Source: Spirochaetales bacterium Spiro_02
Lineage (GTDB): Bacteria; Spirochaetota; Spirochaetia; Sphaerochaetales; Sphaerochaetaceae
Assembly: GCA_001604275.1 (NCBI GenBank)
Contig: LVBD01000031.1
Span: 5,228 to 46,142 of the forward strand
Reading direction: 5' to 3'
DNA length: 40,915 bases
Positions 10,261 to 28,797 of the stretch are shown piece after piece. Every line of letters begins with the position of its first letter. Position 1 is the stretch's first letter. Under the pieces are notes generated by a model, which searched no databases, was not told where the DNA came from, and saw nothing but the letters and a program-made list of their open reading frames with translations. The position numbers and the translations under genes were made by a program.

Positions 10261-11664
10261 CTATCCTTCGAAATACGCCTTGGCGTTTCCGAACGAAATA
10301 TTCTGTACCATCTCACCCAGCATGTCAATGTCGTTCGGGACTTCTCCGTCCTCGACCCACGTGCCGAGAATGTTGCACAGGATCCTGCGGAAGTATTCAT
10401 GACGAGGATAGGAGAGGAACGACCTGCTGTCGGTCAGCATGCCGACGAATCGGCCCAGCAGCCCGACGTTCGCCAGGATCTTCATCTGATCCTCCATGCC
10501 GTCCCTGTGATCGCAGAACCACCATGCCGAGCCGAGCTGCATCTTGCCCGGAATCCCGTCCTGATAGCAGCCCATCAGCGTCGCCAGCGGATAGTAGTCC
10601 TTCGGATTGAGCGTATAGAGGATCGTCTTGGGAAGCGCATTGTCCATCGACATCGTATTGAGCAGCGCGCTGAGGTTCTGCGACATCGGCAGATCGTGGG
10701 ATGCGTCGTAGCCGGTGTCGGGGCCGAGCAGCTTGAACATCCGCGAGTTGTTGTCGCGGATCGAGGCGAAGTGCAGCTGCATCGCGATATCTCGCTTTGC
10801 GTACGCCTTTGCCAGCGCGACCAGGACATGGGTCCTGTAGGCGTCGATTTCTTCAGCGGTCAGCGAAGCGCCGTCCATCTTCTTTGCGAAGATCGCTTCC
10901 GTCTCGGCCTCGCTCTTACTGACGAACGGAGCGTAGGCAAGGGCATGGTCGCTCGCCTTGCAACCGAGCGAGACAAAGAAGTCGAGACGCTGTTCCAGCG
11001 CGGCGATCACGTCGGCTACCGATTTGATCCGGATGCCGGCGGCCTTGCCGAGCTTGGCGATGTAGTCGGCGAAATCGACCTTGTCGATGTTCAGCGCCTT
11101 GTCCGGCCGGAAGGAGGGAATGACCTTCGCCGGACATTTGCCTTCCGAAGCGATCACCTGGTGGTAGTGCAGGTCGTCGGCCGGATCATCGGTCGTCCCC
11201 ACCGCATAGACGTTGAACTTCTTCATGATGCCGAATACGGAAAGTTCGGGGTCGCTGGCGAACTTTTCGTTGGCGATCCGGTAGATTTCCGGCGCGTTCT
11301 TGCGGTTGAGCACCAGATCGATGCCGAAGTACCGCTGCAACTCCAGATGGGTCCAGTGGAACAGCGGGTTGCCGACCAGTTGCTCCATTGTGCCGGCCCA
11401 GGCGTAGAACTTCTCGTACGGATCGGCATCCTTTCCGGTGACCAGCTGTTCCGGAACCCCGTTGGCGCGCATCATCCTCCACTTGTAGTGGTCTCCGCCC
11501 AGCCATGCGTCGGTGATCGTCGTAAAGCGCTTGTCCGTGGCGATCTCCTGGGGAATCAAGTGGCAATGGTAGTCGAAGATCGGCTGCGAAGCCGCATAAT
11601 CGTGATACAGTGTCTGGGCGGTCTTGTTGCCCAGCATGAAATGTTCATCCATAAACTTCTTCAT
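10261..11664 (-). CDS. uxaC: Uronate (glucuronate/galacturonate) isomerase
   Basis: A 467-residue amidohydrolase-fold isomerase converting galacturonate to tagaturonate and glucuronate to fructuronate. The N-terminal FDYHCHLIPQEI carries the metal-ligand pair H33 and H35; ITDAWLGGDHYKWRMMRANG is a strong family signature, as is GRFVGMLTDSRSFLSYPRHEYFRRI near the end when read in parts. Full length. The ATG overlaps the uxaA stop codon in an ATGA arrangement, so translation of the two is coupled. It is the entry step of the galacturonate pathway in this operon. Confidence 0.97.
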   Translation of the reverse strand: MKKFMDEHFMLGNKTAQTLYHDYAASQPIFDYHCHLIPQEIATDKRFTTITDAWLGGDHYKWRMMRANGVPEQLVTGKDADPYEKFYAWAGTMEQLVGNPLFHWTHLELQRYFGIDLVLNRKNAPEIYRIANEKFASDPELSVFGIMKKFNVYAVGTTDDPADDLHYHQVIASEGKCPAKVIPSFRPDKALNIDKVDFADYIAKLGKAAGIRIKSVADVIAALEQRLDFFVSLGCKASDHALAYAPFVSKSEAETEAIFAKKMDGASLTAEEIDAYRTHVLVALAKAYAKRDIAMQLHFASIRDNNSRMFKLLGPDTGYDASHDLPMSQNLSALLNTMSMDNALPKTILYTLNPKDYYPLATLMGCYQDGIPGKMQLGSAWWFCDHRDGMEDQMKILANVGLLGRFVGMLTDSRSFLSYPRHEYFRRILCNILGTWVEDGEVPNDIDMLGEMVQNISFGNAKAYFEG

Positions 11665-13184
11665 AGTATTACTCCATCCTTGAATAGCGAGATTTCGGCA
11701 TATCCGTTCTGCTCGTTCTTCGTTCGATAGACTCCCGAAGCGGTATCGGCAATCAATTTGATGAAATCAGCCGTCACAAGGGCATCATCCTCATGCAGCA
11801 GCCTTCCTGCGTTGAAATCGATCCAGCTGGGTTTCTTTTCCGCCAGCATGGTGTTGCTCGCCACCTTCACCGTCGGCACCGGAGCGCCGAGGGGGGTGCC
11901 CCGTCCGGTGGTAAAGAGGATCACGTGAGCTCCTGCTGCGGTCAGCGCCGTGGTGGATACGATGTCGTTGCCCGGTCCGCTGAGCAGGTTGAGACCCGTA
12001 TGGGCTACCTGCTCCCCGTAACCGAGGATCGCCTCCACGGGGGCGTGGCCCCCTTTCTGAACGCAGCCGAGGCTCTTGTCCTCCAGCGTGCTGATACCGC
12101 CGGCCTTGTTGCCCGGCGATGGGTTTTCATAGACGACCTGCTCGTGCTTGACGAAGTACTGCTTGAAGTCGTTGATCAGCTTGACCGTCTGTTCATAGGT
12201 CCGCCTGTCGACGCAACGGTTCATCAGCATCTGTTCCGCCCCGAACATTTCTGGAACTTCGGTAAGGATTCCCGTTCCGCCCATAGCGGTCAGGGCGTCG
12301 CAGAACCGTCCGACGAGAGCGTTCGCGGTAATGCCGCTGAACCCGTCCGAACCGCCGCACTTGAACCCGACGACCAGGCGGCTCATCGGCACCGGGGTGC
12401 GCACGTCTTTCGCGGCGGTATGCGCCAGTTCGGTCAACATCCGCTTGGCGGCCTCGACCTCATCCTCCACTTCCTGGGCGACGAGGAACTTGACCCTGTC
12501 CGGATCGACTGGGCCGACCAGTTCCTTGAACGACGGCATGGTGTTGTTCTCGCAGCCGAGGCCGAACACCAGCACGCCGCCCGCATTGGGGTGGTGCACC
12601 AAGTCGGCGAGGATCGTACGAGTCGCTTCGTGGTCCTCTCCCATCTGGGAGCACCCGTACGGATGTGCCCAGACATGGATTCCGTCGATCGGCAGATCGG
12701 AGAATTCCTGTTTTGCCCAGCTGACCAGATGTTCGGAAATCTGATTGACGCAGCCGACAGTCGGAACGATCCATAGCTCGTTGCGCACTCCGATCCGGCC
12801 GTCGGGCCGCTCGTACGCCATGATGGTCGGGACTTTGCCCTCCCATTCCTTGCGCCGCTTCTCAGCTTCGGCCAGGCAGGCTTTCGCCGCCGCCTCGTCG
12901 TAGTGGTATTCGGCGCTTTCCGACAGCAATGTCCTGATGTTGTGGGCATGGACATGGCTGCCGGCGGGGATATCTTCCTTTGCCGCACCGATCGGATATC
13001 CGTACTTGATCACCGGATCGCCTTTCTTCAGGTCCACGAGGGAGATCTTGTGCCCCGCGGGGATGTCCGTGACGACAGTCAGCTTCTGCCCTGCGACTTC
13101 GACCACTTCTCCCTTTGAAAGGGGTTCGATCGCCACGGCCACCGAATCGTTCGGATGTATCTTCAGCACTTTGTTCGCTTGCAT
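11661..13184 (-). CDS. uxaA: Altronate dehydratase
   Basis: A 507-residue UxaA/GarD-family dehydratase that removes water from altronate to give 2-keto-3-deoxygluconate. An N-terminal SAF-like domain (about 1-100, with HVHAHNIRTLLSE) is joined to the catalytic part, seen in GRIGVRNELWIVPTVGCVN, HPYGCSQMGEDHE and VGFKCGGSDGFSGITANALVG. Conserved Cys residues probably hold the metal or cluster. Length matches the fused, single-chain form of the family. AAGGAGAG lies before the ATG. It overlaps uxaC by 4 bases and follows uxaB after a 78-bp gap that contains short repeats. Confidence 0.97.
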   Translation of the reverse strand: MQANKVLKIHPNDSVAVAIEPLSKGEVVEVAGQKLTVVTDIPAGHKISLVDLKKGDPVIKYGYPIGAAKEDIPAGSHVHAHNIRTLLSESAEYHYDEAAAKACLAEAEKRRKEWEGKVPTIMAYERPDGRIGVRNELWIVPTVGCVNQISEHLVSWAKQEFSDLPIDGIHVWAHPYGCSQMGEDHEATRTILADLVHHPNAGGVLVFGLGCENNTMPSFKELVGPVDPDRVKFLVAQEVEDEVEAAKRMLTELAHTAAKDVRTPVPMSRLVVGFKCGGSDGFSGITANALVGRFCDALTAMGGTGILTEVPEMFGAEQMLMNRCVDRRTYEQTVKLINDFKQYFVKHEQVVYENPSPGNKAGGISTLEDKSLGCVQKGGHAPVEAILGYGEQVAHTGLNLLSGPGNDIVSTTALTAAGAHVILFTTGRGTPLGAPVPTVKVASNTMLAEKKPSWIDFNAGRLLHEDDALVTADFIKLIADTASGVYRTKNEQNGYAEISLFKDGVIL

Positions 13185-13262
13185 GGTCTCTCCTTGAGGC
13201 CGTTTCCAGCCGTTTCTTTGCTGTTTTTCGGCCGTTTCAGGCCATCTTCTGGCCAGATCCTT
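13185..13262. repeat. Short repeats in the uxaB-uxaA gap
   Basis: The 78-bp gap holds three copies of a GCCGTTTC element (GGCCGTTTCCAG, AGCCGTTTCTTT, GGCCGTTTCAGG). It is followed by GGCCATCTTCTGGCC, which can form a small hairpin. No promoter is evident. Confidence 0.5.
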
Positions 13263-14741
13263 TTACAGGACGCTTTGCATCGTCGCCTGTATGCCGTCGG
13301 TCCAGATGCGGGCGAGGTAGTCGGCGACCATCGCTTCAAGCCCCGGAACCTTGGTCAGATCCTGACCCCACCATGAGCTTTCCGACAGAATGCCCTTCGC
13401 CAGCCGAGCCGCTTTGGCGGAAGCATCGCCCCCTTCGCCGTACAGTTGTGCGAACCGGGCGAGGACCTCCGGGCTGTCCTGGATCAGATAGGTCTGTCCG
13501 TTGCGATCGCCTTTCAGCGCCGCGCCATCCTTCTCCGTGCCCTGGTAGAACGAGATCAGTGCCGCCAGAGAGAAGACCAGACGCTTGGGCAACGTGCCTT
13601 TCTTGTCCAGATAGCCGAGCAGGGAAGGCAGATCCCGGGTCTTGAACTTGCTGGTGGAGTTGAGGGAGATCGACATCAGCAGATGGCGGATATACGGATT
13701 GGCGAACCGCTCCAGCACATCCTCCGCATATTTTTCCAGCTCGGCCTTGTCGCCGTCCATCGACGGAATGATCTCTTCGAAGATTCCCTTGCGCATGAAC
13801 GAGTAGACCATCTGATCCTTGATGCATTCCTCGACGGTATCCAGGCCCGCCTGATGCGCGGCGAGCACCGTCATGGTGTGGGCTCCGTTGAGGATCCTCA
13901 CCTTACGGGTGCGGTAGAAGCTCATGTCGTCGGTCCATACGACGTTCAGTCCAGCCTTGTCGAACGGCAGTTCGTCGCCATGGAAGTTCTTGTGGCATTC
14001 GATCACCCACAGGTGGAAGATCTCGGCCGCGTCGAGCAGGTTGTCCTTGTAGCCGAGCTTCTGGCACAACGCATCGGCCTCTTCTCGCGGATATCCCGGC
14101 ACGATCCGGTCGACCAGACTGTTGCAGAAGTCGCACGCCTGTTCGACCCATGTCGTGAACGCTTCCTCCAGCTTCCATTCCTTTGCGTACTGCAGGACGA
14201 TCCGCTTGAGCGTATCGCCGTTCTTGTCGATCAGTTCGCACGGGATGACGATCAGTCCCGCCCGCTGTGCGCCTGCGAAATGCTGCCAGCGGTGATGGAG
14301 GAATGCGCAGACCTTGCCGGGGTACGAGGTCTGTGGCTTGTCGTCAAGCTTGTCCCCCTCGTGGTAGGCGATCCCAGCTTCGGTGGTGTTGGAGACGATG
14401 AACCGCAGATCCGGATTCTCGGCTACGGCCATGTAGGTTTCGTAGTCGCGATATGGGTTGATGCACCGGCTGACGCTGTTGAGGCATCTGTATTCTTCCA
14501 CGGTCTTGCTGTTCTGCACTCCTCTGAGGACCGTCGTATACAGCCCTTTTTGCTCGTTGATCATATCGGCCATGCCGCGATCCAGCGGCTGTACCTGCAC
14601 GACGTTGCCGTTGAAGTCCGTCTTTTCATTGAGCAGGTCGATCATCCAGTCGACGAATGCGCGGAGGAAGTTCCCTTCCCCGTACTGGAGGATCCGCTCC
14701 GGTCTGGCGGCCGTTTTCTTTACTTCCACGATGGATTTCAT
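13263..14741 (-). CDS. uxaB: Tagaturonate reductase (altronate oxidoreductase)
   Basis: A 492-residue member of the long-chain mannitol dehydrogenase family that reduces tagaturonate to altronate with NADH. The N-terminal ILQYGEGNFLRAFVDWMID is the nucleotide-binding start of UxaB proteins. FIVSNTTEAGIAY and the catalytic-region motif VRILNGAHTMTVLAA, with conserved Asn and His after an upstream Lys, are also present. AAAGGAG precedes the ATG by 7 bases. It lies second in the operon after the transporter, followed by uxaA and uxaC. Fructuronate reductase (uxuB) is a related alternative, but linkage to uxaA and uxaC favours tagaturonate. Confidence 0.95.
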   Translation of the reverse strand: MKSIVEVKKTAARPERILQYGEGNFLRAFVDWMIDLLNEKTDFNGNVVQVQPLDRGMADMINEQKGLYTTVLRGVQNSKTVEEYRCLNSVSRCINPYRDYETYMAVAENPDLRFIVSNTTEAGIAYHEGDKLDDKPQTSYPGKVCAFLHHRWQHFAGAQRAGLIVIPCELIDKNGDTLKRIVLQYAKEWKLEEAFTTWVEQACDFCNSLVDRIVPGYPREEADALCQKLGYKDNLLDAAEIFHLWVIECHKNFHGDELPFDKAGLNVVWTDDMSFYRTRKVRILNGAHTMTVLAAHQAGLDTVEECIKDQMVYSFMRKGIFEEIIPSMDGDKAELEKYAEDVLERFANPYIRHLLMSISLNSTSKFKTRDLPSLLGYLDKKGTLPKRLVFSLAALISFYQGTEKDGAALKGDRNGQTYLIQDSPEVLARFAQLYGEGGDASAKAARLAKGILSESSWWGQDLTKVPGLEAMVADYLARIWTDGIQATMQSVL

Positions 14742-15872: not shown

Positions 15873-16068
15873 GGTAAATTGCCCGTGTTTTGTTTTCATA
15901 ATCCAGTCCCGGAGCTTCTTTTTCAGGGGGATATGCCGTGCTTGACCTGGATACGGGAAGGTGACCGGCTTTACTTCCGGCAGACGTGCTTCCCGCACCC
16001 TAGGCGGTAATGCCCCCGGAAAAGGGAAAATATGCGCCTATGTCGCATATGCTATCAACAATGGCCCG

Positions 16069-16151: not shown

Positions 16152-19100
16152 ATGCCGACGAAGGAACGTCCCAGGAAAATCGGATTCATGCTGGCCTCGA
16201 TCCACACAGGTTCCTCGAACAACCTGTGGGCGGTCCTTGCCAACATGGCGGCCCGCTCCGGCGATGCTCTGTACGTATTTCCCGGAGGAAGGCTCGACTG
16301 CCGCGAAGATTTCGAGTACCTCCGATCCAGCGTCTATTCACTTGCCAATGCCGAGAACCTCGACGGATTGATCAGCTGGAGCTCCAGCCTTGGCGGCTTC
16401 GTGTCGGTCGACGACGTGCTGCGGTTCCATGAACAGTTCGAAGAACTGCCGTATGTGACGATAGGATTGAAGAAGGAAGGGCACCCTGACATCAGTTTCG
16501 ATGCCTATGCCGGGATGAAATCCGAAATATTGCACTGCATATCCGTACACGGGGCGCGGAGGATCGCGTTCCTCAGAGCGCCGGAAAGCCACCTCTCCGC
16601 TGAGGATCGTTACCATGCATACCTCGACACGCTGAACGAATGCGGTATTCCGATCGACGGGCGGCTCATCTCGGACCCCATGCCATGGTCTTCCGGCGGC
16701 CAAGCCCTCGACCAACTCGTCATCGACCGGAAGCTGGTTCCGGGCAAGGACTTCGATACCCTGATCTGCGCCAGCGACCTCATGATGTTCCGTGCAGGCA
16801 GGAGACTGGAGGAGCTGGATGTCACGATCCCCGACGACGTCCGCATCGCGGGCTTCAACGACAGTCACGAAAGCCAGCTGCTCAGGGTGCCGTGCACTAC
16901 CGTCAGCATGCCATTTTCGCAAATGGGGGTCATGGCCTGGGACTCGTTGATGCAGCTGCTCTCTTCGGACAGGATGCGGCAAGGAAGCCCCGACGTCCTC
17001 CTTCCCGCCGAACTGATCGTCCGCCGCTCCTGCGGATGCGAGGACTCCCTCGGAGGACCGTCTCAAGCCGCCTCGATCATCACCGACAGAGATTCGTTCC
17101 TCCGATGGGTCCAGAAGGCGTTCCATCTTTCGGAATCCGAGATGTTCCGTCGCGTCGTCCCGTTGGTGGATGATGCGCTCGGAGCATGCCATGGAACCGA
17201 TGAGCGGAGGTTCCTGTCGCTGGAACAGGAATTATCATCGCTTCTTTTGGAATATTTCAGCAAGAACGGGGACATCAACCTGCTGTATGAGGCCTTGTTG
17301 TGGTTCCGTCTGTTCGCTCCGGCCGGCGACGCCTTCAGGCGGTTCCTTTCCGATCGCTTGCAACCGATGATCGGCAGGACCCAGAACCGGATGTTCAACC
17401 TCGAGATGTTCGAGGCCGGGCGCCGGGCGAGAAAACTTAATTCCCTCAAGTGCGATTTGCTGAGTCTCCGTTCCCTCGCCAGCCTTCCGCAAATTCTCCA
17501 TGCGCACCTTCCTGGGCTGGGAATCGACGCCGCTTTCCTCGTGCTGAACGGCGACGAGGACTTCTCGCAGTTCGTCGGAGGCTTCGTCGACGAGTATGTG
17601 ACCTCCGACCGGCGGGAGTTCCCCCATCGGGAGCTGCTGCCGCCGGACATCGGCGAACGGATGCGGGAAGGCGTCTATATCGTCGAGCCGTTGTTCATGG
17701 AGAACCAACCGCTGGGGTATCTCGTGCTCAGGACCACCGGCAGGGACGGCGGGATGTTCGAGGAACTCAGGTCGTCGCTGAGCAGCGCCATCAAGGGGAT
17801 GTTCCTGTTGGAGGTCGCCAACCAGGCAAGGGAGCAGGCGGAGCGGGCGGAGCGATCCAGAACCGAGTTCTTCGCAAACGTCAGCGACGGACTGCGTGAT
17901 CCGTTGCATGCAATCTTGAAACTGGTCGATGCCCTGAAATCGGATGACTCCGATGTTTCTTCGCGACTTGCCATGTCTCAGGCTATCGAAAAGGAGCTAT
18001 CCAAGGCGAACCACTTGATCGATCTGACCCTATCCCGAACCGGTGAACTCGAACTCGAGCCCCGGTTGCGCGATGCCGGAAGGCTGTTGGATCGGCTGTG
18101 TGAAGTCCTGGGCGCCGAGAGCGGCGATGGCGGTGCGCTGCCTGCGGTTCTTGTCGACGAGACTCGCATCGTCCAGGTCGTGGACATCGTCGGACGGTCG
18201 GTCGCGAGGAACGGCGGACGGGTGCTCTGCTCCGCGCAGGCGGTTTCGGACGGACTGGAGATCATCGTTTCTTCTTCCCAGGAGGGATGGGATCCCCGCA
18301 TGACGCTGCAGGAACCGGGCTTCCTCCTCGCCGAACGGATCATGATGATGCATGACGGGCGGTTCTCTGTAGATCCGCATGCCGTTCGCTGTCTTCTGCC
18401 TTGGCCCACGCTGTCGGGAGAGCGGCTGAAAACCTTGCCGGACGACCAAGGCGCAATCTCCGTATGGGCGGTATCCGCCGGCTCCGACGCTTCGGCGAAG
18501 ATTCCGGATCGATGGTGCGGTCTTTCAGTCCGCGTGCTGTCCGGACATGGCGGAATACCGGTGGAGACGCCGTCGCTACTGATGTGGGATGCGCATGACG
18601 CTTGTTTCGAGACGCTGTCCATGCTACGCATGTTCCGCAAGGATCCTATGAAGAACCGGATTCCGTTCTTGTGCTTCAATGTGCCGGAAGGGTTCTCCAC
18701 GCTGGGCGATGCCGTGGAATCGATCGGCCAGTCGTTCGGCGGAGGGGCTGTGTTCCTGTTCGGGGAACTTCCTCCGGCAATGGAATGGCTGGTTCCGGCA
18801 GGAGAGATCGTTTCCTTGGATTCCCTCGACGAATATCCGTCGAGGTGCGGGGATAATCCCGCAGGTCTGCTGGTCGTCTCGAAGGAGGTCCCCGTCGATG
18901 CGGTGGAGGCGATCCGGCGGTCGCGAAACGGCGGTTCCATTCCGATCCTGCTGATGTATGATACCTTCGATCCCTCCGATGTCGAACGGCTCTGCCTGCT
19001 TCCCCGGGTGCTGATCTGCCACGCCTGCATGGCGGAAAGCGATGGCGTTATCGCGCGCATCAGGGGATTGCTCGCAGGAGACGATATCCTTCCGCCGTTG

Positions 19101-19415
19101 ACCGGCGCTCTGGTCAAGCGCGCGGTCATGTTTCTGTGCCGGCATGCTACGACGCAGATTTCACGCTGGCAGCTCGCCGATGCGGTCAATGTCAGCGAGG
19201 ACTACTTGACGAGAATATTCCGCAAGGAGTTGGGAATTTCTCCGTGGGACTATCTGAACCGCTATCGTATCCATCTCGCATCCCAGCTGCTCCGCCGGAC
19301 GGCGATGACGATCAACGAGGTCGCCTCCCGTACCGGGTTCCAGGATCAGGCATATTTCTGCAGAGTGTTCAAGAAGGTGAGGGGATGTCCACCGGGAAAG
19401 GTCCGTGGGCGCTAG
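16152..19415 (+). CDS. Large AraC-family regulator with LacI-like sensor and degenerate histidine-kinase core
   Basis: A 1087-residue cytoplasmic regulator. Residues about 8-300 form a LacI/periplasmic-binding-type sensor without its own DNA-binding head, ending in LIVRRSCGC, typical of such sensors. A helical and GAF-like stretch follows. Around 560-600 there is a histidine-kinase dimerisation motif, FFANVSDGLRDPLHAI, in which the phospho-acceptor His is Asp (D579). The ATPase-like part after it lacks visible N and G boxes, and two receiver-like segments follow. The last 95 residues are an AraC double helix-turn-helix. AAAGGAG precedes the ATG. It sits just upstream of the oligosaccharide importer, which it probably controls. 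Phosphorelay activity seems lost; sugar binding is the likely signal. Confidence 0.85.
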   Translation: MPTKERPRKIGFMLASIHTGSSNNLWAVLANMAARSGDALYVFPGGRLDCREDFEYLRSSVYSLANAENLDGLISWSSSLGGFVSVDDVLRFHEQFEELPYVTIGLKKEGHPDISFDAYAGMKSEILHCISVHGARRIAFLRAPESHLSAEDRYHAYLDTLNECGIPIDGRLISDPMPWSSGGQALDQLVIDRKLVPGKDFDTLICASDLMMFRAGRRLEELDVTIPDDVRIAGFNDSHESQLLRVPCTTVSMPFSQMGVMAWDSLMQLLSSDRMRQGSPDVLLPAELIVRRSCGCEDSLGGPSQAASIITDRDSFLRWVQKAFHLSESEMFRRVVPLVDDALGACHGTDERRFLSLEQELSSLLLEYFSKNGDINLLYEALLWFRLFAPAGDAFRRFLSDRLQPMIGRTQNRMFNLEMFEAGRRARKLNSLKCDLLSLRSLASLPQILHAHLPGLGIDAAFLVLNGDEDFSQFVGGFVDEYVTSDRREFPHRELLPPDIGERMREGVYIVEPLFMENQPLGYLVLRTTGRDGGMFEELRSSLSSAIKGMFLLEVANQAREQAERAERSRTEFFANVSDGLRDPLHAILKLVDALKSDDSDVSSRLAMSQAIEKELSKANHLIDLTLSRTGELELEPRLRDAGRLLDRLCEVLGAESGDGGALPAVLVDETRIVQVVDIVGRSVARNGGRVLCSAQAVSDGLEIIVSSSQEGWDPRMTLQEPGFLLAERIMMMHDGRFSVDPHAVRCLLPWPTLSGERLKTLPDDQGAISVWAVSAGSDASAKIPDRWCGLSVRVLSGHGGIPVETPSLLMWDAHDACFETLSMLRMFRKDPMKNRIPFLCFNVPEGFSTLGDAVESIGQSFGGGAVFLFGELPPAMEWLVPAGEIVSLDSLDEYPSRCGDNPAGLLVVSKEVPVDAVEAIRRSRNGGSIPILLMYDTFDPSDVERLCLLPRVLICHACMAESDGVIARIRGLLAGDDILPPLTGALVKRAVMFLCRHATTQISRWQLADAVNVSEDYLTRIFRKELGISPWDYLNRYRIHLASQLLRRTAMTINEVASRTGFQDQAYFCRVFKKVRGCPPGKVRGR

Positions 19416-19420
19416 CGGAA

Positions 19421-19450
19421 CAAACGCTCCCCATATGGGCGTTCTTGTAT
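19421..19450 (+). terminator. Probable terminator of the AraC-type gene
   Basis: AACGCTCCC and GGGCGTT form a stem around CATAT shortly after the stop codon, followed by CTTGT. The T-run is poor. Confidence 0.45.
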
Positions 19451-19500
19451 GCCGCCGAAAACGATAAAAAAGTATCAACAACTCATCAAATTTTTTATTT

Positions 19501-19521
19501 ACAATGAATTGATTGCTCATT
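19501..19521. promoter_or_regulatory. Inverted repeat upstream of the oligosaccharide importer
   Basis: CAATGA, 9-base spacer, TCATTG, about 100 bases upstream of the first permease gene in an AT-rich patch. It is a candidate site for the adjacent AraC-type regulator. Confidence 0.3.
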
Positions 19522-19623
19522 GCATACGAATTGCCGGTTATCTGAAAGTCGGAAAAGTACAATTTGCTCTCTGCATTTTCTGTGAATCCCGGTGTATGGT
19601 ACATGTATCGAGGTAGGAGAAAT

Positions 19624-20556
19624 ATGGCAAAAAGCAAGGAGCTCAACAACAGGAGCCCTCTGGTGAGGGATATCGTGCGCCATCGGGCTGTATACGCGCT
19701 GCTGGCGATTCCGCTTGCGTACTACATCATCTTCAAATATGTGCCGATCTGGAACGGACAGATCGCGTTCCGGGACTATATGGCCCTCGACGGGGTGCTG
19801 GGCAGCCGGTGGATCGGGCTGGAGAATTTCAGGACGTTCTTCCATTCCTTCTATTTCTGGGAGCTGCTGCGCAATACGCTGATGTACAGTTTCGGAAAGA
19901 TCGTGTTCAGCCTGCCGCTGGCGATATTGCTGTCCATCACGATCTACGAGTGTCGCAGGACGAGGCTTCGCAAGGTGGTACAGACGCTGACGTACCTGCC
20001 GCACTTCCTGTCGTGGGTCATCATGTACGGGATCCTGCTAGTGCTGCTGGCCCCCGGAGACGGCATCGTCAACGATATCGTCAAGGCGGTCGGAGGACAG
20101 CCGGTGGACTTCCTGACCAATACCAAGGCGTTTCCGTGGATCGTGATCCTCTCCGACGCATGGAAGGAGATGGGGTGGAGTGCGATCATCTTCATCGCGG
20201 CGTTGATGGGCATCGATATGTCGCTGTTCGAGGCGGCGATGGTGGAGGGAGCCAACGCATGGCAGCGGGTGAGGTACATCACGCTGCCGTCGATCGCGCC
20301 GGTGATCGTGACGGTGCTGTTGCTGCGCATCGGGACGATTCTGGATGCGGGGTTCAATCAGCTGTTCATGCTCTATTCGCCGGCTGTCTACAGCGTGGGC
20401 GACATCATCGACACGTGGGTGTATCGCCAGGGGTTGCTGGAGTTCCAGTTCGGGCTGGCCACTGCGGTAGGTCTGTTCAAGGGGCTGATCGGCATGCTGC
20501 TGATCTTCCTGTCCAACAGACTGACGAGGAAGATCTCCGGATCTTCGTTGTTCTAG
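19624..20556 (+). CDS. CUT1-type sugar ABC transporter permease (LplB/YteP-like)
   Basis: A 310-residue inner-membrane permease with about six transmembrane helices. The EAA loop that contacts the ATPase reads EAAMVEGANAWQRVRYITLP, with the conserved Gly. FKYVPIWNGQIAFRDY near the N-terminus is typical of the LplB/YteP branch that takes up complex oligosaccharides, including rhamnogalacturonan fragments. TAGGAG lies 5 bases before the ATG. Ten bases separate it from the second permease. No ATPase gene is in the cluster, so a shared ATPase encoded elsewhere (MsmX-like) is inferred. Confidence 0.93.
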   Translation: MAKSKELNNRSPLVRDIVRHRAVYALLAIPLAYYIIFKYVPIWNGQIAFRDYMALDGVLGSRWIGLENFRTFFHSFYFWELLRNTLMYSFGKIVFSLPLAILLSITIYECRRTRLRKVVQTLTYLPHFLSWVIMYGILLVLLAPGDGIVNDIVKAVGGQPVDFLTNTKAFPWIVILSDAWKEMGWSAIIFIAALMGIDMSLFEAAMVEGANAWQRVRYITLPSIAPVIVTVLLLRIGTILDAGFNQLFMLYSPAVYSVGDIIDTWVYRQGLLEFQFGLATAVGLFKGLIGMLLIFLSNRLTRKISGSSLF

Positions 20557-20566
20557 GGGGAGCGAG

Positions 20567-21475
20567 ATGGCCAAGAAACAACATGTAATCAAGGGGACGG
20601 CGGTGCGCCTGACAGGCGCAGACCGGTCGTTCTATCTGCTGGTGGACATCTTTCTGTGGGTGATGCTGTTCATCATCGCGATTCCGATGTGGAGCACCAT
20701 CACGCTGTCGTTCCGTCCGAACGATTTCATCGGGACCAACATCGAGGGGATGTTCCTGATGCCGTGGAACTGGTCTACGGCGGCGTACAAGGCGTTGCTG
20801 GGCAACAACGGGTTCATCATGGCGTTCGCCAACAGCCTGAAGATTCTGGTGATGGGCGTGACATGCTCGTTGCTGCTGACGATCCCGTTGGCATACGTAC
20901 TGTCGGTGCAGACGCTGCCGGGGCGCAAATGGCTGAACATCCTGGTCATTGTGCCGTATATCTTCAACGTGGGGATGATTCCTTCGTACCTGCTGGTGAC
21001 GAATCTGGGACTGATCGACAAGCTGGTTGCGGTATTCCTGCCGGGAGCGGTCAGTACGTACAACTGTATCATCATGCGCTCGTTCTTCGAGGGGATTCCC
21101 GGGGAGCTGAAGGAGTCGGCGCGCATCGACGGGTGCACGGAGATCGGCGTTCTGGTGCGGATCGTGTTGCCGCTGTCCAAGGCGATCATCCTGACGGTGG
21201 GGCTGTTCTACGGGGTGTCGTTCTGGAACGACTTCTTCCATGCGATGCTGTACCTGAACCGTAACGAGCTGCAGCCGCTGCCGATCCTGCTGCGCAACAT
21301 CCTGATGGCGTCGGGGATGAACGAATACGTGGAGGTCAATGCGTTCGGAGAGGCTCCGATCGCGGCGATCAAGGCGGCTTCGGTGTTCATGAGCGCCATT
21401 CCGATGATTCTGGCCTATCCGTTCATCCAGAAGTACTTCACCAAGGGGACGCTGCTGGGGAGCGTGAAGGGCTAA
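20567..21475 (+). CDS. CUT1-type sugar ABC transporter permease (LplC/YtcP-like)
   Basis: A 302-residue inner-membrane permease with six predicted helices, the partner of the preceding gene. The EAA-type loop is ESARIDGCTEIGVLVRIVLP. The C-terminal YPFIQKYFTKGTLLGSVKG is the standard ending of YtcP/LplC proteins. GGGGAG precedes the ATG. The substrate is inferred from the neighbours: GH105 just downstream, and GH28 and CE12 upstream point to pectic or rhamnogalacturonan oligosaccharides. Confidence 0.94.
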   Translation: MAKKQHVIKGTAVRLTGADRSFYLLVDIFLWVMLFIIAIPMWSTITLSFRPNDFIGTNIEGMFLMPWNWSTAAYKALLGNNGFIMAFANSLKILVMGVTCSLLLTIPLAYVLSVQTLPGRKWLNILVIVPYIFNVGMIPSYLLVTNLGLIDKLVAVFLPGAVSTYNCIIMRSFFEGIPGELKESARIDGCTEIGVLVRIVLPLSKAIILTVGLFYGVSFWNDFFHAMLYLNRNELQPLPILLRNILMASGMNEYVEVNAFGEAPIAAIKAASVFMSAIPMILAYPFIQKYFTKGTLLGSVKG

Positions 21476-21576: not shown

Positions 21577-23154
21577 ATGAAGAAACATCTGTTGACTATC
21601 GTCGCGATCATCGCGTTGCTTGCGATCGTCGCGCTGCCGGTATTCGCCCAGGGCGCTACCGAGGCTTCCGCTTCGAGCGCCAGTTCGAAACCGGTGACTA
21701 TCGATCTGTGGTACGGCGCCGCTATCACCGAGGCCGGACCTCCCCCGGCCGACTGGGTCGGCTACCAGATCATCAAGGACAAGCTGAACATCGACCTCAA
21801 GTTGACGGCTCTTCCGTCCAATGAAAGCGACCAGGACGTCAAGATCCAGGCCGCCGGCGCCGCCAACAACCTGCCCGACCTGTTCATGGTCCGCCGCGAC
21901 GCATGGAAGCGCCTGGTGCAGCAGGGGCTGGTCGCCTCCGTCGACGATCTGTATGCGGAGATGCCCACCCGCACCGCCGTGCAGTACGATGCCGACAGCA
22001 TCGCGTTCACCACGATCAACGGCAAGTCCTATGGGCTCGCTTCTCCCGGCTCGATCATCAAGAACGAAGGGTTGCTGATCCGCAAGGACTGGCTGGACAA
22101 GCTTGGCCTGCAGGTTCCCACCACCACCGACGAGCTGTTCGAGGTCATGAAGGCGTTCACCTTCAACGATCCTGACGGCAACGGCAAGAACGATACCTAT
22201 GGATTCGGTGCGTTCATCGAACTGAACAACTATGAAGAGGGGCTCGGCCGTCGCTTCCAGCCTATCTACGGCGCGTTCGGCGTGGAAGGGACCTGGGATC
22301 TGAACGCCGCCACCGCCGGTCTGAACGTCCGCAAGCCCGAGATGTACGACGCGATGGTCTACATCAAGCAGATGCAGGACGCCGGCGTGATCGATCCGAA
22401 CTGGATGGCGTACAAGAAGGATGACTTCCGCGCCGCATGGAAGCAGGGCAAGTTCGGCATCATGCGCGAGCAGAACGCCGCCTATGCCGCTACTGCCAAC
22501 TATGCTCCGTTCGACAAGAACTTCCCTGACGGCGAGTGGATCGTCATCGATCCTCCAAAGGGTCCGACCGGAAAGTCCTCCGTCGGTCCGTACACCGTCA
22601 ACTACCGCATCTACGCTGTTTCCGCCAAGGCTGCGAAGGAAGGCAAGGCCGATGCGATCGCCCGTCTGCTCGAATGGATGTCCTCCGACGAGGGCTACTA
22701 CCTGCTCGGCTGGGGCGTCGAGGGCGTGAACTATGTGAAGGATGAGAACGGGATCCCGACCGACAAGGGTCTGGCTCTGGGCTTCTCCACGCCGAACGGA
22801 CAGACTGTCACCCAGTTGCGGAACATGGTGTTCTACAATAGCGACGTCGAGCTGTACGCCCGCTATCCGAAGTACGTGACGGCGGTTTCCGGCAAGACGA
22901 TGAGCGCTTTGGACGTTCTGCGCGACATGCAGAGCCGCAAGTGGACTCCGTCGATCGGATGCGACACGCTGCCCGCCCCGAACGCCGACGTCAAGCGTTT
23001 CTACGAACAGGGCGTGCTTGAGTTCCTTACCGGCAAGCGCCAGCTGACCAAGGACAACTGGACCAAGTGGGTGGCCGAGTTCGACAAGATCGGCGGCAAG
23101 GCTTGGGAAGATGCCGGCATCGCCTATGCGAAGGAAGCCGGGTTGCTCAAGTAG
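21577..23154 (+). CDS. Extracellular solute-binding protein of the oligosaccharide importer
   Basis: A 525-residue family 1 (LplA/YtcQ-like) solute-binding protein. The signal peptide is MKKHLLTIVAIIALLAIVAL followed by PVFAQGA, with likely cleavage after FA. There is no lipobox Cys, so it would be periplasmic and not a lipoprotein. The mature part has the long form of the LplA group, with DGNGKNDTYGFGAF (a calcium-loop-like segment common in this group). GTAAGGAGG precedes the ATG. A strong hairpin terminator follows. It probably delivers pectic or rhamnogalacturonan oligomers to the two permeases upstream. Confidence 0.92.
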   Translation: MKKHLLTIVAIIALLAIVALPVFAQGATEASASSASSKPVTIDLWYGAAITEAGPPPADWVGYQIIKDKLNIDLKLTALPSNESDQDVKIQAAGAANNLPDLFMVRRDAWKRLVQQGLVASVDDLYAEMPTRTAVQYDADSIAFTTINGKSYGLASPGSIIKNEGLLIRKDWLDKLGLQVPTTTDELFEVMKAFTFNDPDGNGKNDTYGFGAFIELNNYEEGLGRRFQPIYGAFGVEGTWDLNAATAGLNVRKPEMYDAMVYIKQMQDAGVIDPNWMAYKKDDFRAAWKQGKFGIMREQNAAYAATANYAPFDKNFPDGEWIVIDPPKGPTGKSSVGPYTVNYRIYAVSAKAAKEGKADAIARLLEWMSSDEGYYLLGWGVEGVNYVKDENGIPTDKGLALGFSTPNGQTVTQLRNMVFYNSDVELYARYPKYVTAVSGKTMSALDVLRDMQSRKWTPSIGCDTLPAPNADVKRFYEQGVLEFLTGKRQLTKDNWTKWVAEFDKIGGKAWEDAGIAYAKEAGLLK

Positions 23155-23255: not shown

Positions 23256-23285
23256 CGACTATCAATTATTACAGGGATGTGCTCC

Positions 23286-24389
23286 ATGCGATTCGATACT
23301 TCACGAACACTTTCCCGGCGGATGGCGGATTCTGTCGTCGGCCGATATCGTCCTGGGATGATGAAATGGCATTATGAGCATGGCTTGGTCATCATGGCGG
23401 CCATGCGGGTGGGCGAGATTTCCGGCGACGGCTCGTACTATGACTGGGCGTATGCGATGTACGATCCGCTGATCGCTTCCGACGGGGCTATCGCCACCTA
23501 CCGGAAAGGTGAGTTCAATCTGGATCAGATCAATGCGGGGCGGAATCTGTTCACGTTCCATTCTCGCTCGGGCGAGCGGCGGTTCAAGCTGGCCGCCGAC
23601 CGGCTGAAGGAGCAATTGCGGAATCAGCCTCGTACGCTTGCCGGTCCGTACTGGCACAAGGAGATCTATCCGTGGCAGGTATGGCTCGATGGTCTGTACA
23701 TGCAGGGGCCGTTCAATGTCCAGTACAGCGCCACGTTCGGTGATGATGGTGCGTTCGATGATGTCTGCAGGCAGCTGGTCGTCACGTATGAGAAGCTGCT
23801 CGATCCGAAGACCGGCTTGCTCTATCATGCCTGGGACGAGTCGCGTGGGCAGCGCTGGTCGGACATCGAGACCGGCTGCTCTCCTCATTTCTGGGGGCGT
23901 TCGATCGGATGGTACTGTATGGCGATCATCGATGTGCTCGACTTCCTTCCTTCGGGCCACAAGATGATTCCTCAGTTGCACGACATTCTTCGTCGGCTTC
24001 TGGCTTCGGTGCTGAAATTCCAGGATCGAAGCGGGATGTGGTGGCAGGTCGTCGACGAGGCCGGCCGAGAAGGGAACTATCTTGAGACGTCGGCGACATC
24101 GATGTTCTGCTATAGTCTGTTCCGAGGCGTCCGCGAGGGGATTCTCAAGGATTCTCGGGAATGCGTCGAAGCGGCGCGGCGCGGCATGGAGGGAATCCGT
24201 GCCAAGTATGTGCGGGAGGATGCTTCGGGCGAGTTGCATCTTGGCGGGATCTGTTCGGTCGCCGGGCTCGGCGGCAATCCGTATCGCGATGGTTCGTTCC
24301 GCTACTATGTCCAGGAACCTGTCGTCGAGGACGACTTCAAGGGAGTCGGTCCGTTTATTCTGGCCTGCATCGAGGAGGAACGGCGTTAG
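23286..24389 (+). CDS. GH105 unsaturated rhamnogalacturonyl hydrolase (YteR/YesR-like)
   Basis: A 367-residue (alpha/alpha)6-barrel enzyme that removes the unsaturated galacturonyl residue left at oligomer ends by pectate or rhamnogalacturonan lyases, by hydration of its double bond. The key motif is WQVWLDGLYMQGPF with the general acid Asp at about residue 135. KWHYEHGLVIMA, HAWDESRGQRWSD and HFWGRSIGWYCMAIIDVL are also family features. I chose the ATG at 23286 because AGGG lies 9 bases upstream; an ATG at 23277 directly abuts that AGGG. No signal peptide, so cytoplasmic. Its presence implies that lyases act upstream, but none is encoded in this window. Confidence 0.93.
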   Translation: MRFDTSRTLSRRMADSVVGRYRPGMMKWHYEHGLVIMAAMRVGEISGDGSYYDWAYAMYDPLIASDGAIATYRKGEFNLDQINAGRNLFTFHSRSGERRFKLAADRLKEQLRNQPRTLAGPYWHKEIYPWQVWLDGLYMQGPFNVQYSATFGDDGAFDDVCRQLVVTYEKLLDPKTGLLYHAWDESRGQRWSDIETGCSPHFWGRSIGWYCMAIIDVLDFLPSGHKMIPQLHDILRRLLASVLKFQDRSGMWWQVVDEAGREGNYLETSATSMFCYSLFRGVREGILKDSRECVEAARRGMEGIRAKYVREDASGELHLGGICSVAGLGGNPYRDGSFRYYVQEPVVEDDFKGVGPFILACIEEERR

Positions 24390-24786: not shown

Positions 24787-25869
24787 ATGAAGAAGTTGAT
24801 TGTTGCGCTTTGTGTATTGCTGCTGATCGGTTCGTTCGCATTTGCCCAGGGGGCGGGCGAGACGACCAAGGCGAAGGCTCTCAGGGTCGGCATGGTGACC
24901 GATGCTGGGACCATCGACGACAAATCCTTCAACCAGGGGACATGGGAAGGCATCAAACGCGCCGGAGCGGAATTCGGTCTCGATGTCAAATACCTCAAGC
25001 CCGCTGGAACGACGGAAGCCGACTACCTCAAGGAAATGGGCAACCTCTATGACGCCGGGTACAAATTCATCGTCTGCCCCGGCTACAAGTTCGAGACCGC
25101 CGTCTACGAAGCCCAGGACAAGTGGCCCGACGCCAAGTTCGTCATCCTCGATGGCGAACCCCACACTGCGGACTACGCCACCTATCGGATCGAAAAGAAC
25201 GTCGTGGCCCTCTACTGGGCGGAGCAGGAATCAGGCTTCCTCGCCGGAGTCGCCGCTTCGCTGCAGATGAAGGAAGCCGAATTTGGTTTCGTCGGCGGCA
25301 TGGAGATCCCCGCTGTCCAGAAGTTCAACTGGGGCTGGCAGCAGGGCATCAAGTACGCCAATGAAAACTACGGCACCAAGATCGTCCTCAAGCAGGAGAA
25401 CGACCTGTACCAGGGTTCGTTCGACAACGTCGCCGCAGGACAGCAGCTCGCCGCTTCCATGTATGACAAGGGCGTCAAAGTCATCTTCGCCGCCGCAGGT
25501 GGCGTTGGAGTGGGCGTCATTAACGAAGCGAAGAGCAGAGCTTCCGCAGGACAGGACGTGTGGGTCGTCGGCGTCGATGTCGACCAGTATGCCGAAGGGC
25601 TGCTGCCCAGCGGCAAGTCGATCATCCTGACCTCCGCCATGAAGTATCTGGACCGTGCTTCCTACGACATGATCATCGACGAGATGAACGGCACCTTCCC
25701 CGGCGGACAGATCCTTCGTCTGAATGCCACCAACAACGGCATCGGCATTCCGGTGGACAACCCGAACCTTTCCGCCGACGTGCAGGCCGAAGTAGCCAAG
25801 ATCTACGAGAAGATCAAGAGCGGCGAAATCAAGGTCGCCGACACGCAGATCGCCGGTCTCTACAAGTAA
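24787..25869 (+). CDS. BMP-family nucleoside-binding protein (PnrA/TmpC-like)
   Basis: A 360-residue periplasmic binding protein of the basic-membrane-protein family, whose spirochaete member TmpC/PnrA binds purine nucleosides. The signal peptide runs to about FAFAQGA; no lipobox Cys is seen, unlike lipoprotein relatives. GMVTDAGTIDDKSFNQGTW is the hallmark N-terminal motif, and FVGGMEIPAVQKFNWGWQQG and VIFAAAGGVGVGVINEAK are further family blocks. AGGAGAGG lies 4 bases before the ATG. The ATPase and two permeases of the importer follow, separated by a hairpin that may reduce read-through. Purine nucleoside phosphorylase nearby supports the nucleoside role. Confidence 0.93.
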   Translation: MKKLIVALCVLLLIGSFAFAQGAGETTKAKALRVGMVTDAGTIDDKSFNQGTWEGIKRAGAEFGLDVKYLKPAGTTEADYLKEMGNLYDAGYKFIVCPGYKFETAVYEAQDKWPDAKFVILDGEPHTADYATYRIEKNVVALYWAEQESGFLAGVAASLQMKEAEFGFVGGMEIPAVQKFNWGWQQGIKYANENYGTKIVLKQENDLYQGSFDNVAAGQQLAASMYDKGVKVIFAAAGGVGVGVINEAKSRASAGQDVWVVGVDVDQYAEGLLPSGKSIILTSAMKYLDRASYDMIIDEMNGTFPGGQILRLNATNNGIGIPVDNPNLSADVQAEVAKIYEKIKSGEIKVADTQIAGLYK

Positions 25870-25892
25870 TCACACCGTTCGTTCATACCCAT

Positions 25893-25921
25893 GCAAGGGC
25901 CGCCTCACGGGCGGCCCTTGT
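25893..25921 (+). terminator. GC-rich hairpin between binding-protein and ATPase genes
   Basis: CAAGGGCCGCC pairs with GGCGGCCCTTG around a short TCACG loop, then TGGGATTTT. It probably acts as a partial terminator or stabiliser that keeps the binding protein in excess. Confidence 0.7.
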
Positions 25922-26040
25922 GGGATTTTCGGGGTCGCGTGGCCGGCTCCTCTCCAAGATCCGGCGGATCGCCGTCGATCGAAAGGGGGCCATCATCGTC
26001 GCACGGAGCTTCCGTGCCCTCAAAGGGAGTCTATTCGCCA

Positions 26041-27561
26041 ATGAGTCACGTCATAGAAATGTTGCATATTCGCAAGGAGTTTCCGGGAATCGTCGCCAAC
26101 GATGACATTTCGCTTCAGGTTGAGCAGGGGGAGATCCATGCGATACTCGGGGAGAACGGAGCCGGAAAATCGACCTTGATGAGCATTCTCTTCGGTCTGT
26201 ATCATGCGGACGAGGGAATCATCAAGGTCAAGGGGAAGGAAGTGAAGATTTCCTCTCCCAACGACGCCACCGAGCTTGGCATCGGCATGGTGCACCAGCA
26301 TTTCCAGCTGGTCCATAATTTCACTGTCACCGAAAACATCATTCTCGGAAAGGAGGGGGGCTTCTTCCTCGACCGACGCAATGCGTCGAAGAAGATCAAG
26401 GCGCTGTCGGAGAAGTACGGCCTGAGCATCGACCCGGACATGGTCATCGAGGATATTTCGGTGGGGATGCAGCAGCGGGTGGAGATTCTCAAGATGCTGT
26501 ATCGCGATGCCGACATCCTGATCTTCGACGAACCGACGGCCGTGCTGACGCCCCAGGAAATCGACGAATTGATGCAGATCATGCGCAATCTTGTCGCCGA
26601 AGGCAAGTCGATCATCCTGATTACCCATAAGCTCGATGAAATCAAGGCGGTCGCCGACCGATGCACCATCATCCGACGAGGCAAGATGATCGGCGTAGTC
26701 GATGTGGCTACGACCAGCCAGGCCCAGATGGCGGCGATGATGGTCGGCCGACCGGTCTCCTTCAAGGTGGAGAAGAAGACCGCTCAGCCGGGGCGGGTCA
26801 TCCTCGATGTCCACCATCTGAACGTCATGAACTCCAAGAAGGTCCTCGGTGTCAAGGACTTCTCGCTTACTGTCCGTGCCGGAGAAATCGTCGGAATCGC
26901 CGGAGTGGACGGCAACGGACAGAGCGAGCTGGTCGAGGCGATCACCGGGCTGCGTCCGATAGAGTCGGGCGCCGTTAGCGTCGCGGGGACCGATGTCACC
27001 CATGCGTCGATCAGAGCCCGAAACGAAGCGGGGATCGGACATATTCCGGAGGACCGGCAGAAACGTGGTCTGGTTCTCAACGAGACCGTCGCCGCCAACA
27101 TGGTGATCAAGGACTACTACCACGCTCCGTTCTCCAGGCACGGTCTGCTGAAGGAAGATGTCATAGAAACGTATGCCAAGGATGTCGTCAAGCAGTTCGA
27201 CGTACGGAGCGGCGAGGGAATCTTCTCTCTGGCAGGCAAACTGTCCGGCGGTAACCAGCAGAAGGCGATCGTCGGACGAGAGATGGTGGCCGACCCGCAG
27301 CTGCTGATCGCCGTCCAGCCTACCCGAGGGCTCGACGTAGGGGCGATCGAATATATCCACAAGCAGCTGGTGCTGCATCGTGACAAGGGGCATGCAGTGC
27401 TTCTCGTTTCGTTCGAACTGGATGAGATCTTCAACCTTTCCGACAGGATCGCGGTCATGAACAACGGCGAGTTGGTCGATGTCGTGAAGACCTCCGAGAC
27501 CGATGAGCATGAGGTCGGATTGCTGATGGCGGGCGTCAAAGGCAAGGAAGGTGCGAAATGA
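26041..27561 (+). CDS. Nucleoside ABC transporter ATP-binding protein (NupO-like)
   Basis: A 506-residue protein with two ABC ATPase domains, as in the sugar/nucleoside CUT2-type group. Domain 1 has Walker A GENGAGKST, the Q-loop region GMVHQHFQL, signature ISVGMQQRVEILK and Walker B ILIFDEPTAVL. Domain 2 has a degenerate Walker A (GVDGNGQSE) and signature LSGGNQQKAIVGRE with LLIAVQPTRGLD, the usual pattern of one less active site. AAAGGGAG lies 11 bases before the ATG. Its stop overlaps the next start by 4 bases. Confidence 0.95.
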   Translation: MSHVIEMLHIRKEFPGIVANDDISLQVEQGEIHAILGENGAGKSTLMSILFGLYHADEGIIKVKGKEVKISSPNDATELGIGMVHQHFQLVHNFTVTENIILGKEGGFFLDRRNASKKIKALSEKYGLSIDPDMVIEDISVGMQQRVEILKMLYRDADILIFDEPTAVLTPQEIDELMQIMRNLVAEGKSIILITHKLDEIKAVADRCTIIRRGKMIGVVDVATTSQAQMAAMMVGRPVSFKVEKKTAQPGRVILDVHHLNVMNSKKVLGVKDFSLTVRAGEIVGIAGVDGNGQSELVEAITGLRPIESGAVSVAGTDVTHASIRARNEAGIGHIPEDRQKRGLVLNETVAANMVIKDYYHAPFSRHGLLKEDVIETYAKDVVKQFDVRSGEGIFSLAGKLSGGNQQKAIVGREMVADPQLLIAVQPTRGLDVGAIEYIHKQLVLHRDKGHAVLLVSFELDEIFNLSDRIAVMNNGELVDVVKTSETDEHEVGLLMAGVKGKEGAK

Positions 27562-28796
27562 GTAAGAAACCGAAACAGAAGAAAGAGTTCAAAAGCAACG
27601 ATTTCCTGATCGCGCTTTCCGCGGTGGTTCTTGGCTTGATCGCCGGCGCCGTGCTGATGGCGGCGATCGGTAGCAATCCGTTCGAGGGGTTCCTCTACCT
27701 GTTCCGCGGCGGACTGATGAACATCGAGCGCATCGGCAATACGCTGGCTACCGCCACGACGTTGATGCTTGTGGGGCTGTCCGTGGCGTTCGCATTCAAG
27801 ACGGGGCTGTTCAACATCGGAGCGTCGGGGCAGATGCTGGTCGGAGGGCTGTGTGCGACGCTGGTCGCCCACCATGTGTTTCTTCCCCGCCCGCTGTACT
27901 TGGTGGTGCTGATCCTGTCCGCGCTGCTGGGGGGAGCGTTGTGGGGCGTGATTCCCGGATTCCTCAAGGCGAAGTTCAATGTGCACGAGGTGGTGGCGAC
28001 GATCATGATGAACTGGATCGCCTACTGGTCGGTCTACTATTTCGTGCCGGCGTATCTGAAGGGGCCGTCGCTGGAGACCGAGTCGGCTTCGATCGCGGTG
28101 ACGCAGTCGCTACGTACCGAATGGCTGACCAAGATGTTCCATGGGTCGTACGTGAATCTCGGTATCTTCGTGGCGATCGTGGCGGTGATCATTGTCAAAT
28201 TCATCCTGGATAAGACGACGCTCGGCTTCGAGCTGAAGGCGGTTGGCTCCAATCGGTTCTGCGCCGAGTATGCAGGGATCAAGGTCAATCGCAATGTCGT
28301 CGTCTCGATGATGATCGCCGGCGGGCTGGCCGGGTTGGCCGGGCTGACGTTCTACACCGGCTATGCGCGCAATATGCAGATCGGCGTGATGCCGAGCCAG
28401 GGTTTCGATGGAATCGCCGTGGCGTTGCTGGGGGCGAGCAATCCGGTGGGGGTGCTGTTCTCGTCGCTGTTTTTCGGTATGCTGCAGTCGGGCAAGGGGT
28501 TCATGAACGCCATGACGAGTGTTCCTCCTGAGATCGCCGATACGATCATCGCCACGATCATCTACTTCACCGCGACCAGCGTGCTGTTCAAGAAGTTCTG
28601 GGACGGCGTAGCTCGGAAAATGACGATTCGTAGGGAAAAGGAAGTGGCCGCCCAGGAGGCGCAGGATGCCAAGGATGCGCAGACGGTTGCGGGGCGATTG
28701 GCAGAACCCTCGTCCGGTCCTGATGTGAGTTTGCATCCGTCCAGGGAATCTATCGGTCCGGTTAGCGGCGGAACCGACGGCAAGGAGGTGAAATAA
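27558..28796 (+). CDS. Nucleoside ABC transporter permease (NupP-like)
   Basis: A 412-residue membrane permease of the BPD_transp_2 family, with about eight to ten helices up to residue 350. Typical blocks are LAFKTGLFNIGA-like AFKTGLFNIGASGQMLVGG, HEVVATIMMNWIAYW and GYARNMQIGVMPSQGFDGIAVALLGASNP when read in parts. An unusual C-terminal tail of about 60 residues is hydrophilic and rich in Ala, Gln and Asp (KEVAAQEAQDAKDAQ). It overlaps the ATPase gene by 4 bases (ATGA) and ends 1 base before the next permease. Confidence 0.93.
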   Translation: MSKKPKQKKEFKSNDFLIALSAVVLGLIAGAVLMAAIGSNPFEGFLYLFRGGLMNIERIGNTLATATTLMLVGLSVAFAFKTGLFNIGASGQMLVGGLCATLVAHHVFLPRPLYLVVLILSALLGGALWGVIPGFLKAKFNVHEVVATIMMNWIAYWSVYYFVPAYLKGPSLETESASIAVTQSLRTEWLTKMFHGSYVNLGIFVAIVAVIIVKFILDKTTLGFELKAVGSNRFCAEYAGIKVNRNVVVSMMIAGGLAGLAGLTFYTGYARNMQIGVMPSQGFDGIAVALLGASNPVGVLFSSLFFGMLQSGKGFMNAMTSVPPEIADTIIATIIYFTATSVLFKKFWDGVARKMTIRREKEVAAQEAQDAKDAQTVAGRLAEPSSGPDVSLHPSRESIGPVSGGTDGKEVK

Positions 28797-28797
28797 T

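Follow-up and report, generated by a model that had tools for sequence, protein, structure and literature searches.

Probable conversion of a hybrid two-component regulator into a phosphorylation-independent regulator of pectin-oligomer uptake in spirochaetes

The large regulator encoded at positions 16152-19415 (+ strand) of the window, i.e., the whole stretch of 40,915 nucleotides from Spirochaetales bacterium Spiro_02 that was analysed, is quite likely a former hybrid two-component regulator, now converted into a one-component regulator (probably an activator) of pectin-oligomer uptake that acts independently of phosphorylation. The chemistry of the phosphorelay has been lost, yet the pectin-uptake genes and the predicted binding site are those found with the intact relatives, so that the protein probably operates by a change of shape alone. 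Its descent would lead from a hybrid two-component regulator, composed of a LacI-type sensor, a histidine kinase, receivers and an AraC output, to a cytoplasmic one-component transcription factor.

Domain organization and loss of the phosphorelay residues

The open reading frame reads through and codes for a polypeptide of 1087 amino acids. An alternative in-frame ATG occurs at 16032, 40 codons 5' of the start at 16152, and the similarity within the family begins at about residues 5-9 of the shorter form. The genome from which the window originates (2.6 Mb) holds a single full-length copy of the regulator, and a paralog expansion was rejected for this reason. More than 100 relatives were found, the named ones belonging to Sphaerochaeta, Treponema and other Spirochaetota, with matches in 107 of the 139 genomes searched in a survey of one family including the source genome. 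A plasmid search yielded no record covering 80% of the query.

The polypeptide begins with a LacI-type sugar-binding domain (aa 7-296, 16170-17039, + strand as for all the following segments), ending with RRSCGC and recognized by Pfam as Peripla_BP_3 over residues 133-294 (E 1e-20), a match recovered in 40/40 members scanned. The sugar-binding core of the LacI family is thus present from residue 7 onwards, and no match to the N-terminal LacI HTH occurs in the window protein. A linker found poorly conserved in the comparison by region (aa 297-430, 17040-17441) separates the sensor from an alpha/beta module (aa 431-552, 17442-17807) delineated by AlphaFold secondary structure only, whose designation as GAF-like comes from the model alone since the module has no Pfam match. 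A long signalling helix and a DHp hairpin follow (aa 553-632, 17808-18047), supported by AlphaFold/Foldseek and by a HisKA match (residues 570-625, E 1.4e-4) lying under the gathering score. The pseudo-ATPase (CA) segment (aa 633-755, 18048-18416) was delimited by its modelled fold and by alignment with the two intact relatives described below, and precedes a first receiver-like segment (approximately aa 769-860, 18456-18731), placed by the model and by alignment, and a second pseudo-receiver (approximately aa 863-980, 18738-19091). At the C-terminal end, the AraC-type DNA-binding domain (aa 1008-1086, 19173-19409) is intact and forms the most conserved region of the protein; it contains the two HTH motifs of AraC/XylS regulators (HTH_18, E 6e-24) and was detected in 40/40 members scanned. 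These Pfam matches at both ends bear out the first-pass annotation, which had regarded the LacI-type sensor and the AraC domain as intact, and together with the modelled folds between them they give the order sensor, kinase, receiver and AraC in a single chain that characterizes HTCS proteins. Neither HATPase_c nor Response_reg was matched by Pfam in the window protein.

At residue 579, encoded by the codon 17886-17888, Asp occupies the position of the phospho-acceptor His in the HisKA motif, FFANVSDGLRDPL, a replacement proposed from the sequence in the first-pass annotation and confirmed by the alignments. In a first set of 82 relatives His never occurred in this column (E62 D12 S2 A2 Q2 G1 K1), and in 138 aligned relatives it was absent from 136 (E67 S27 D14 N14 A4 Q4 G2 T2 H2 K1, one row not listed). 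The loss of His is thus fixed across the clade, even though the residue itself varies, being mainly acidic on the Sphaerochaetaceae side and Ser or Asn in much of the Treponema side. The His-bearing pair (L156 and L161, from Treponema-labelled assemblies) lacks the ATPase motifs and is placed among relatives with Asn at the acceptor position. With respect to the 0.9% of HisKA domains devoid of His in a survey (722 of 76,471; PMC12632262), a loss in 136/138 relatives is far from the background and beyond chance. A phospho-mimic role of the acidic residues found at this position is only a guess.

The same applies to the other phosphorelay residues, although the alignment is less secure in the CA and receiver columns than in the DHp columns. 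Aligned to an intact relative, the CA segment of the window protein lacks the N-box Asn, the G1 Asp, the F box and the G2 box, and the ATP-lid segment is deleted; these elements are likewise missing from the members compared with the intact relatives. The acidic pair, the phospho-Asp and the Lys are all absent from the second receiver. HATPase_c and Response_reg were found in 0/40 of the members scanned, even at E 0.1, and the ATPase motifs and receivers, which had been described as eroded and degenerate from the letters alone, are so across the members scanned. The window protein therefore retains none of the acceptor His, ATP boxes and receiver acidic pair, Asp and Lys expected of an HTCS and, with a kinase fold in the model but its motifs absent, is a predicted pseudo-histidine kinase. 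Continued phosphorylation of the protein by a separate kinase, with acidic residues around position 579 or of the receivers as acceptors, is highly improbable: an acidic residue occurs at the His position in 81/138 relatives, and an Asp at the aligned receiver column in 22/138, where the alignment is unsure, but no acceptor residue is common to the members, Ser or Asn replaces the His in a large part of the Treponema side, and the acidic pair and Lys of the receiver are missing.

Intact, intermediate and reduced relatives

A search of the phylum retrieved two full-length proteins, L247 (genome G394) and L248 (G380), from one genus of another family of the same class. Both possess the sensor and the output of the window protein and display SHELRTPL at the acceptor position, and they retain the His, the ATPase boxes and the receiver Asp, with Pfam matches (E values for L247 and L248, respectively) to HisKA (4e-11/3e-12), HATPase_c (1e-29/2e-26) and Response_reg (7e-11/5e-12). 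Through these proteins, which are encoded in a similar locus, the regulator shares common descent with an intact HTCS. Since no further intact full-length member was found, with the cut-offs used, in 23 genomes of their family and 395 genomes of the class, the intact state is documented by two related sequences from one genus.

Trees were built from the sensor and the GAF-like region, with LacI-sensor kinases and further proteins bearing LacI sensors as the outgroup. In two trees, L247 and L248 together with L251 form the sister group of all pseudokinase members (support 98/91 and 100/97). The main pseudokinase group received a support of 98/94 in the first tree and of 84/81 once L278 was added. 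The latter protein has an intermediate character, with a Glu at the His position and a retained HATPase_c match (E 3e-9), which suggests that the acceptor His was lost before the ATPase became eroded. In L251, most of the DHp/CA is gone while the sensor and output are kept; its locus contains none of the neighbours found in the window and no match to the operator discussed below. Provided that the ancestor was intact, the loss in L251 would count as a separate event.

His-bearing relatives had been anticipated in the first-pass annotation as a possible sign of an isolated mutation. Such relatives do exist, as L247 and L248, but they belong to the sister clade, keep the whole phosphorelay and have a similar neighbourhood, as predicted by an evolution from a phosphorelay. 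A stepwise conversion of one orthologous regulator, from phosphorelay hybrid kinase to allosteric one-component activator, has in our opinion about an even chance of being correct: the His would have disappeared ahead of the erosion of the ATPase, in an ancestor common to most members and a second time in the line of L251. The main clade would have retained sensor, output, target operon and operator, with the dead block taking on the part of a mechanical link.

Various other proteins of spirochaetes contain sensors of this type. The LacI-sensor histidine kinases L254, L277, L098 and L257, which served as an outgroup of the tree, have a homologous sensor and middle region associated with HisKA or HisKA_3 and HATPase_c, but differ from the regulator by the lack of a receiver or AraC output in their matches. 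Cytoplasmic LacI-type sensors predicted to be linked to apparently intact histidine kinases, devoid of a receiver or DNA-binding domain, occur in L098 (3734-6244), L099 (3325-5724), L254 and L277. In L255 (2217-4718), the LacI-type sensor of the regulator is combined with PAS and with a DNA-binding domain of the LuxR type (GerE) in one protein, and three consecutive large LacI-sensor proteins are encoded in L253 (4155-15155, genome G474), the scanned one having PAS, GGDEF and EAL. A paralog of 765 aa (L100, 3813-6107) consists of a LacI-type sensor and AraC with no kinase match, and lies on a long branch. In L249 (4957-8703, genome G285), a LacI-type sensor of the termite-Treponema type is joined to another kind of kinase that appears to be active. 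The protein matches two receivers and, weakly, Hpt; it gave no match to HTH, and its locus lacks the shared neighbours. It was rejected as an intact member nested among Treponema on account of its different kinase core, missing HTH match and foreign neighbours, and was left out of the second tree; a re-fusion after loss is a possible origin.

Probable target genes and candidate operator

The genes adjoining the regulator point to the use of pectin. Downstream, on the + strand, are an ABC sugar transporter permease (19624-20556), probably the first target gene, and a second ABC permease (20567-21475), each detected in 103 of 142 loci, a solute-binding protein (SBP_bac_8, 21577-23154, 101/142) and an unsaturated-uronide hydrolase of the GH88/GH105 type (Glyco_hydro_88, E 1e-91, 23277-24389, 78/142). 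Upstream and divergent (10261-14741, - strand) are genes identified by Pfam as uxaC (66/142), altronate dehydratase (66/142) and a tagaturonate-reductase type (74/142). All these counts are rough, because a number of loci are situated at the ends of contigs and certain genomes are represented twice. A polygalacturonase-type glycosidase (GH28; Glyco_hydro_28, E 5e-36) occurs further out, at 3769-5127 (+ strand). The substrate of the locus is likely a pectin oligomer, and the genes next to the intact L247 and L248 likewise encode these permeases, the binding protein and the hydrolase. Farther downstream in the window (24787-29730), a BMP-type binding protein, an ATPase and two permeases resemble a putative B6- or nucleoside-type family of ABC importers.

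A candidate operator of 33 bp, AGTCGGAAAAGTACAATTTGCTCTCTGCATTTT, is located at 19547-19579 (+ strand), between the regulator and the first permease. Its core, CGG[AT]4GTNC, was found on the coding strand of 36 of the 73 non-redundant regulator-permease intergenic regions and on the reverse strand of none, as compared to a mean of 0.24 and a maximum of 3 regions in shuffled controls, a figure which overstates independence because the sequences are related. About half of the intergenic regions have no strict match to the motif. Conservation continues beyond this core into another block, TGSATWWT, so that the whole site measures 33 bp. A matrix derived from 16 sites, nearly all from Sphaerochaetaceae, was scanned over whole loci of 6-15 kb; its top match in the entire locus fell on the regulator stop or immediately past it in eight loci (L120, L136, L178, L245, L258, L259, L261 and L262) and also in those of the intact L247 and L248; nothing convincing emerged from the scan of L126, L142 and L252, among others. 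Two candidate copies occur in the single locus L246, before the hydrolase gene (8375) and before a relocated permease operon (11173).

The source genome contains a single exact occurrence of the pattern, at 19548-19562, and one-mismatch hits number 2, versus 4 for a reversed control pattern; these figures suggest that the regulator acts locally, on one main target. From the position and conservation of the putative site, we infer that the regulator binds at 19547-19579. The binding site had been sought earlier in the inverted repeat at 19501-19521, a proposal that did not hold: the repeat is not conserved, being absent from the intergenic regions of all other orthologs, and is one of 21 repeats of this form (6-bp arms, 9-bp spacer) in the window. 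The 19547-19579 site thus appears as a better candidate. A sigma-70 scan of 19380-19660 found no promoter, and the -10-like peaks located about 24, 35 or 45 nt past the CGG are weak and confounded with the motif.

Proposed signalling through a dead kinase scaffold

According to the proposed mechanism, a pectin-derived sugar imported by the adjoining transporter would bind the LacI-type domain, and the resulting conformational change would be transmitted by the GAF-like module and the signalling helix to the dead but folded DHp/CA/receiver block. This block would free or re-orient the AraC domain, which would in turn bind the 33-bp site at 19547-19579 and turn on the operon coding for the two permeases, the binding protein and the glycosidase. 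The ligand, activation rather than repression and the path of the signal through the scaffold are what we infer from the data presented here.

The fold of the block was predicted with confidence. An AlphaFold model of aa 425-985, built with 80 relatives, reached a mean pLDDT of 90.7, with confidently predicted DHp, CA and receiver folds. VIA-align rows span DHp and CA with Z values of about 13-16 (about 15 for the CA domain). When the receiver segment was modelled alone, its latter half matched response regulators with Z values of 11-12, and the best Foldseek match was PleD, a protein with tandem receivers; the first receiver is less certain than the second because the fold rows mostly covered the second. 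The median dN/dS, calculated from those pairs of closely related sequences that could be used, at most 22, amounts to 0.067 for the LacI domain, 0.097 for DHp, 0.135 for CA, 0.147 for REC1, 0.123 for REC2 and 0.025 for the HTH, so that the dead domains are constrained, less so than the sensor and the output. An isolated mutation or a pseudogene was rejected on the grounds of this constraint and of the clade-wide loss of His. The earlier suggestion of a phosphorelay evolved into a one-component regulator is supported likewise by the clade-wide loss, the intact relatives of the sister clade, the retained folds and the purifying selection.

The CA and receiver segments are nevertheless the most variable folded parts in the comparison by region, and some of them may therefore be spacer. 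More generally, the kinase/receiver block could be a leftover spacer and dimerisation platform, the dimerisation of the sensor positioning the AraC domains directly with no signal passing through the dead domains. This explanation is in keeping with that variability, with L251, which kept sensor and HTH with most of the DHp/CA missing, and with the 765-aa LacI-AraC paralog devoid of a kinase match, but it is unlikely in view of folds kept with high model confidence, of a dN/dS of 0.10-0.15 throughout the dead domains and of Asp669 of the CA segment, invariant in 39 diverse members.

The best Foldseek match of the 425-985 model is DivL of Caulobacter (4q20, E 7e-11), a pseudo-histidine kinase that senses a phosphorylated response regulator and whose kinase activity is dispensable (PMC4211667). 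As in DivL, the dead domains could serve as a second input, either as a ligand-binding pseudo-ATPase or pseudo-receiver, pseudo-receivers being able to bind ligands (PMC12632262), or as a surface on which a response regulator or a separate kinase docks. Such a role is distinctly improbable, since no conserved gene for a partner kinase or response regulator was seen in the neighbourhoods of the 142 loci, where the only other conserved regulator is of the IclR type (50/142 loci). Passage of the signal by shape change through the scaffold is preferred here.

With respect to known systems, DivL resembles the present family in the replacement of the acceptor His throughout its orthologs and in its conserved DHp/CA fold, but it keeps the N, G1, F and G2 boxes and has no described DNA-binding domain (PMC4211667). 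The HTCS of Bacteroides similarly combine sensor, HisKA, HATPase, receiver and AraC in one polypeptide beside polysaccharide-use genes (PMC11253607), but are described as membrane sensors, whereas the sensor of the window regulator is a cytoplasmic LacI-type domain. One of them, BT4236, has Gln848 at the His position and a phosphorylation-independent mechanism has been suggested for it (PMC11253607); the window regulator has in comparison lost the kinase, the ATP site and the receivers, as a fixed trait of a clade of orthologs. ChiS from Vibrio cholerae is also a hybrid sensor kinase which itself binds DNA and controls a polysaccharide-use programme (PMC8092284), but it is membrane-bound and uses a DNA-binding domain other than AraC.

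Single cases of HTCS or kinases without His are thus already known, as exemplified by BT4236 and DivL, and it is the clade-wide orthologous conversion series that appears to be new. A literature search covering few subscription journals, and hence weak evidence of novelty, returned no description of the regulator family, nor of an orthologous clade with intact, intermediate and dead forms in which the intact and dead ones share locus and candidate operator.

Phosphate-free signalling through a kinase scaffold is hard to test by isolated mutants, and the switching of pseudo-receivers has been described as unsolved (PMC12632262). In this regulator, intact, half-lost and fully dead versions occur in nature, the intact and dead ones with a common operon and predicted operator, and this natural series therefore makes the question of signalling through the scaffold testable by direct comparison and domain exchange.
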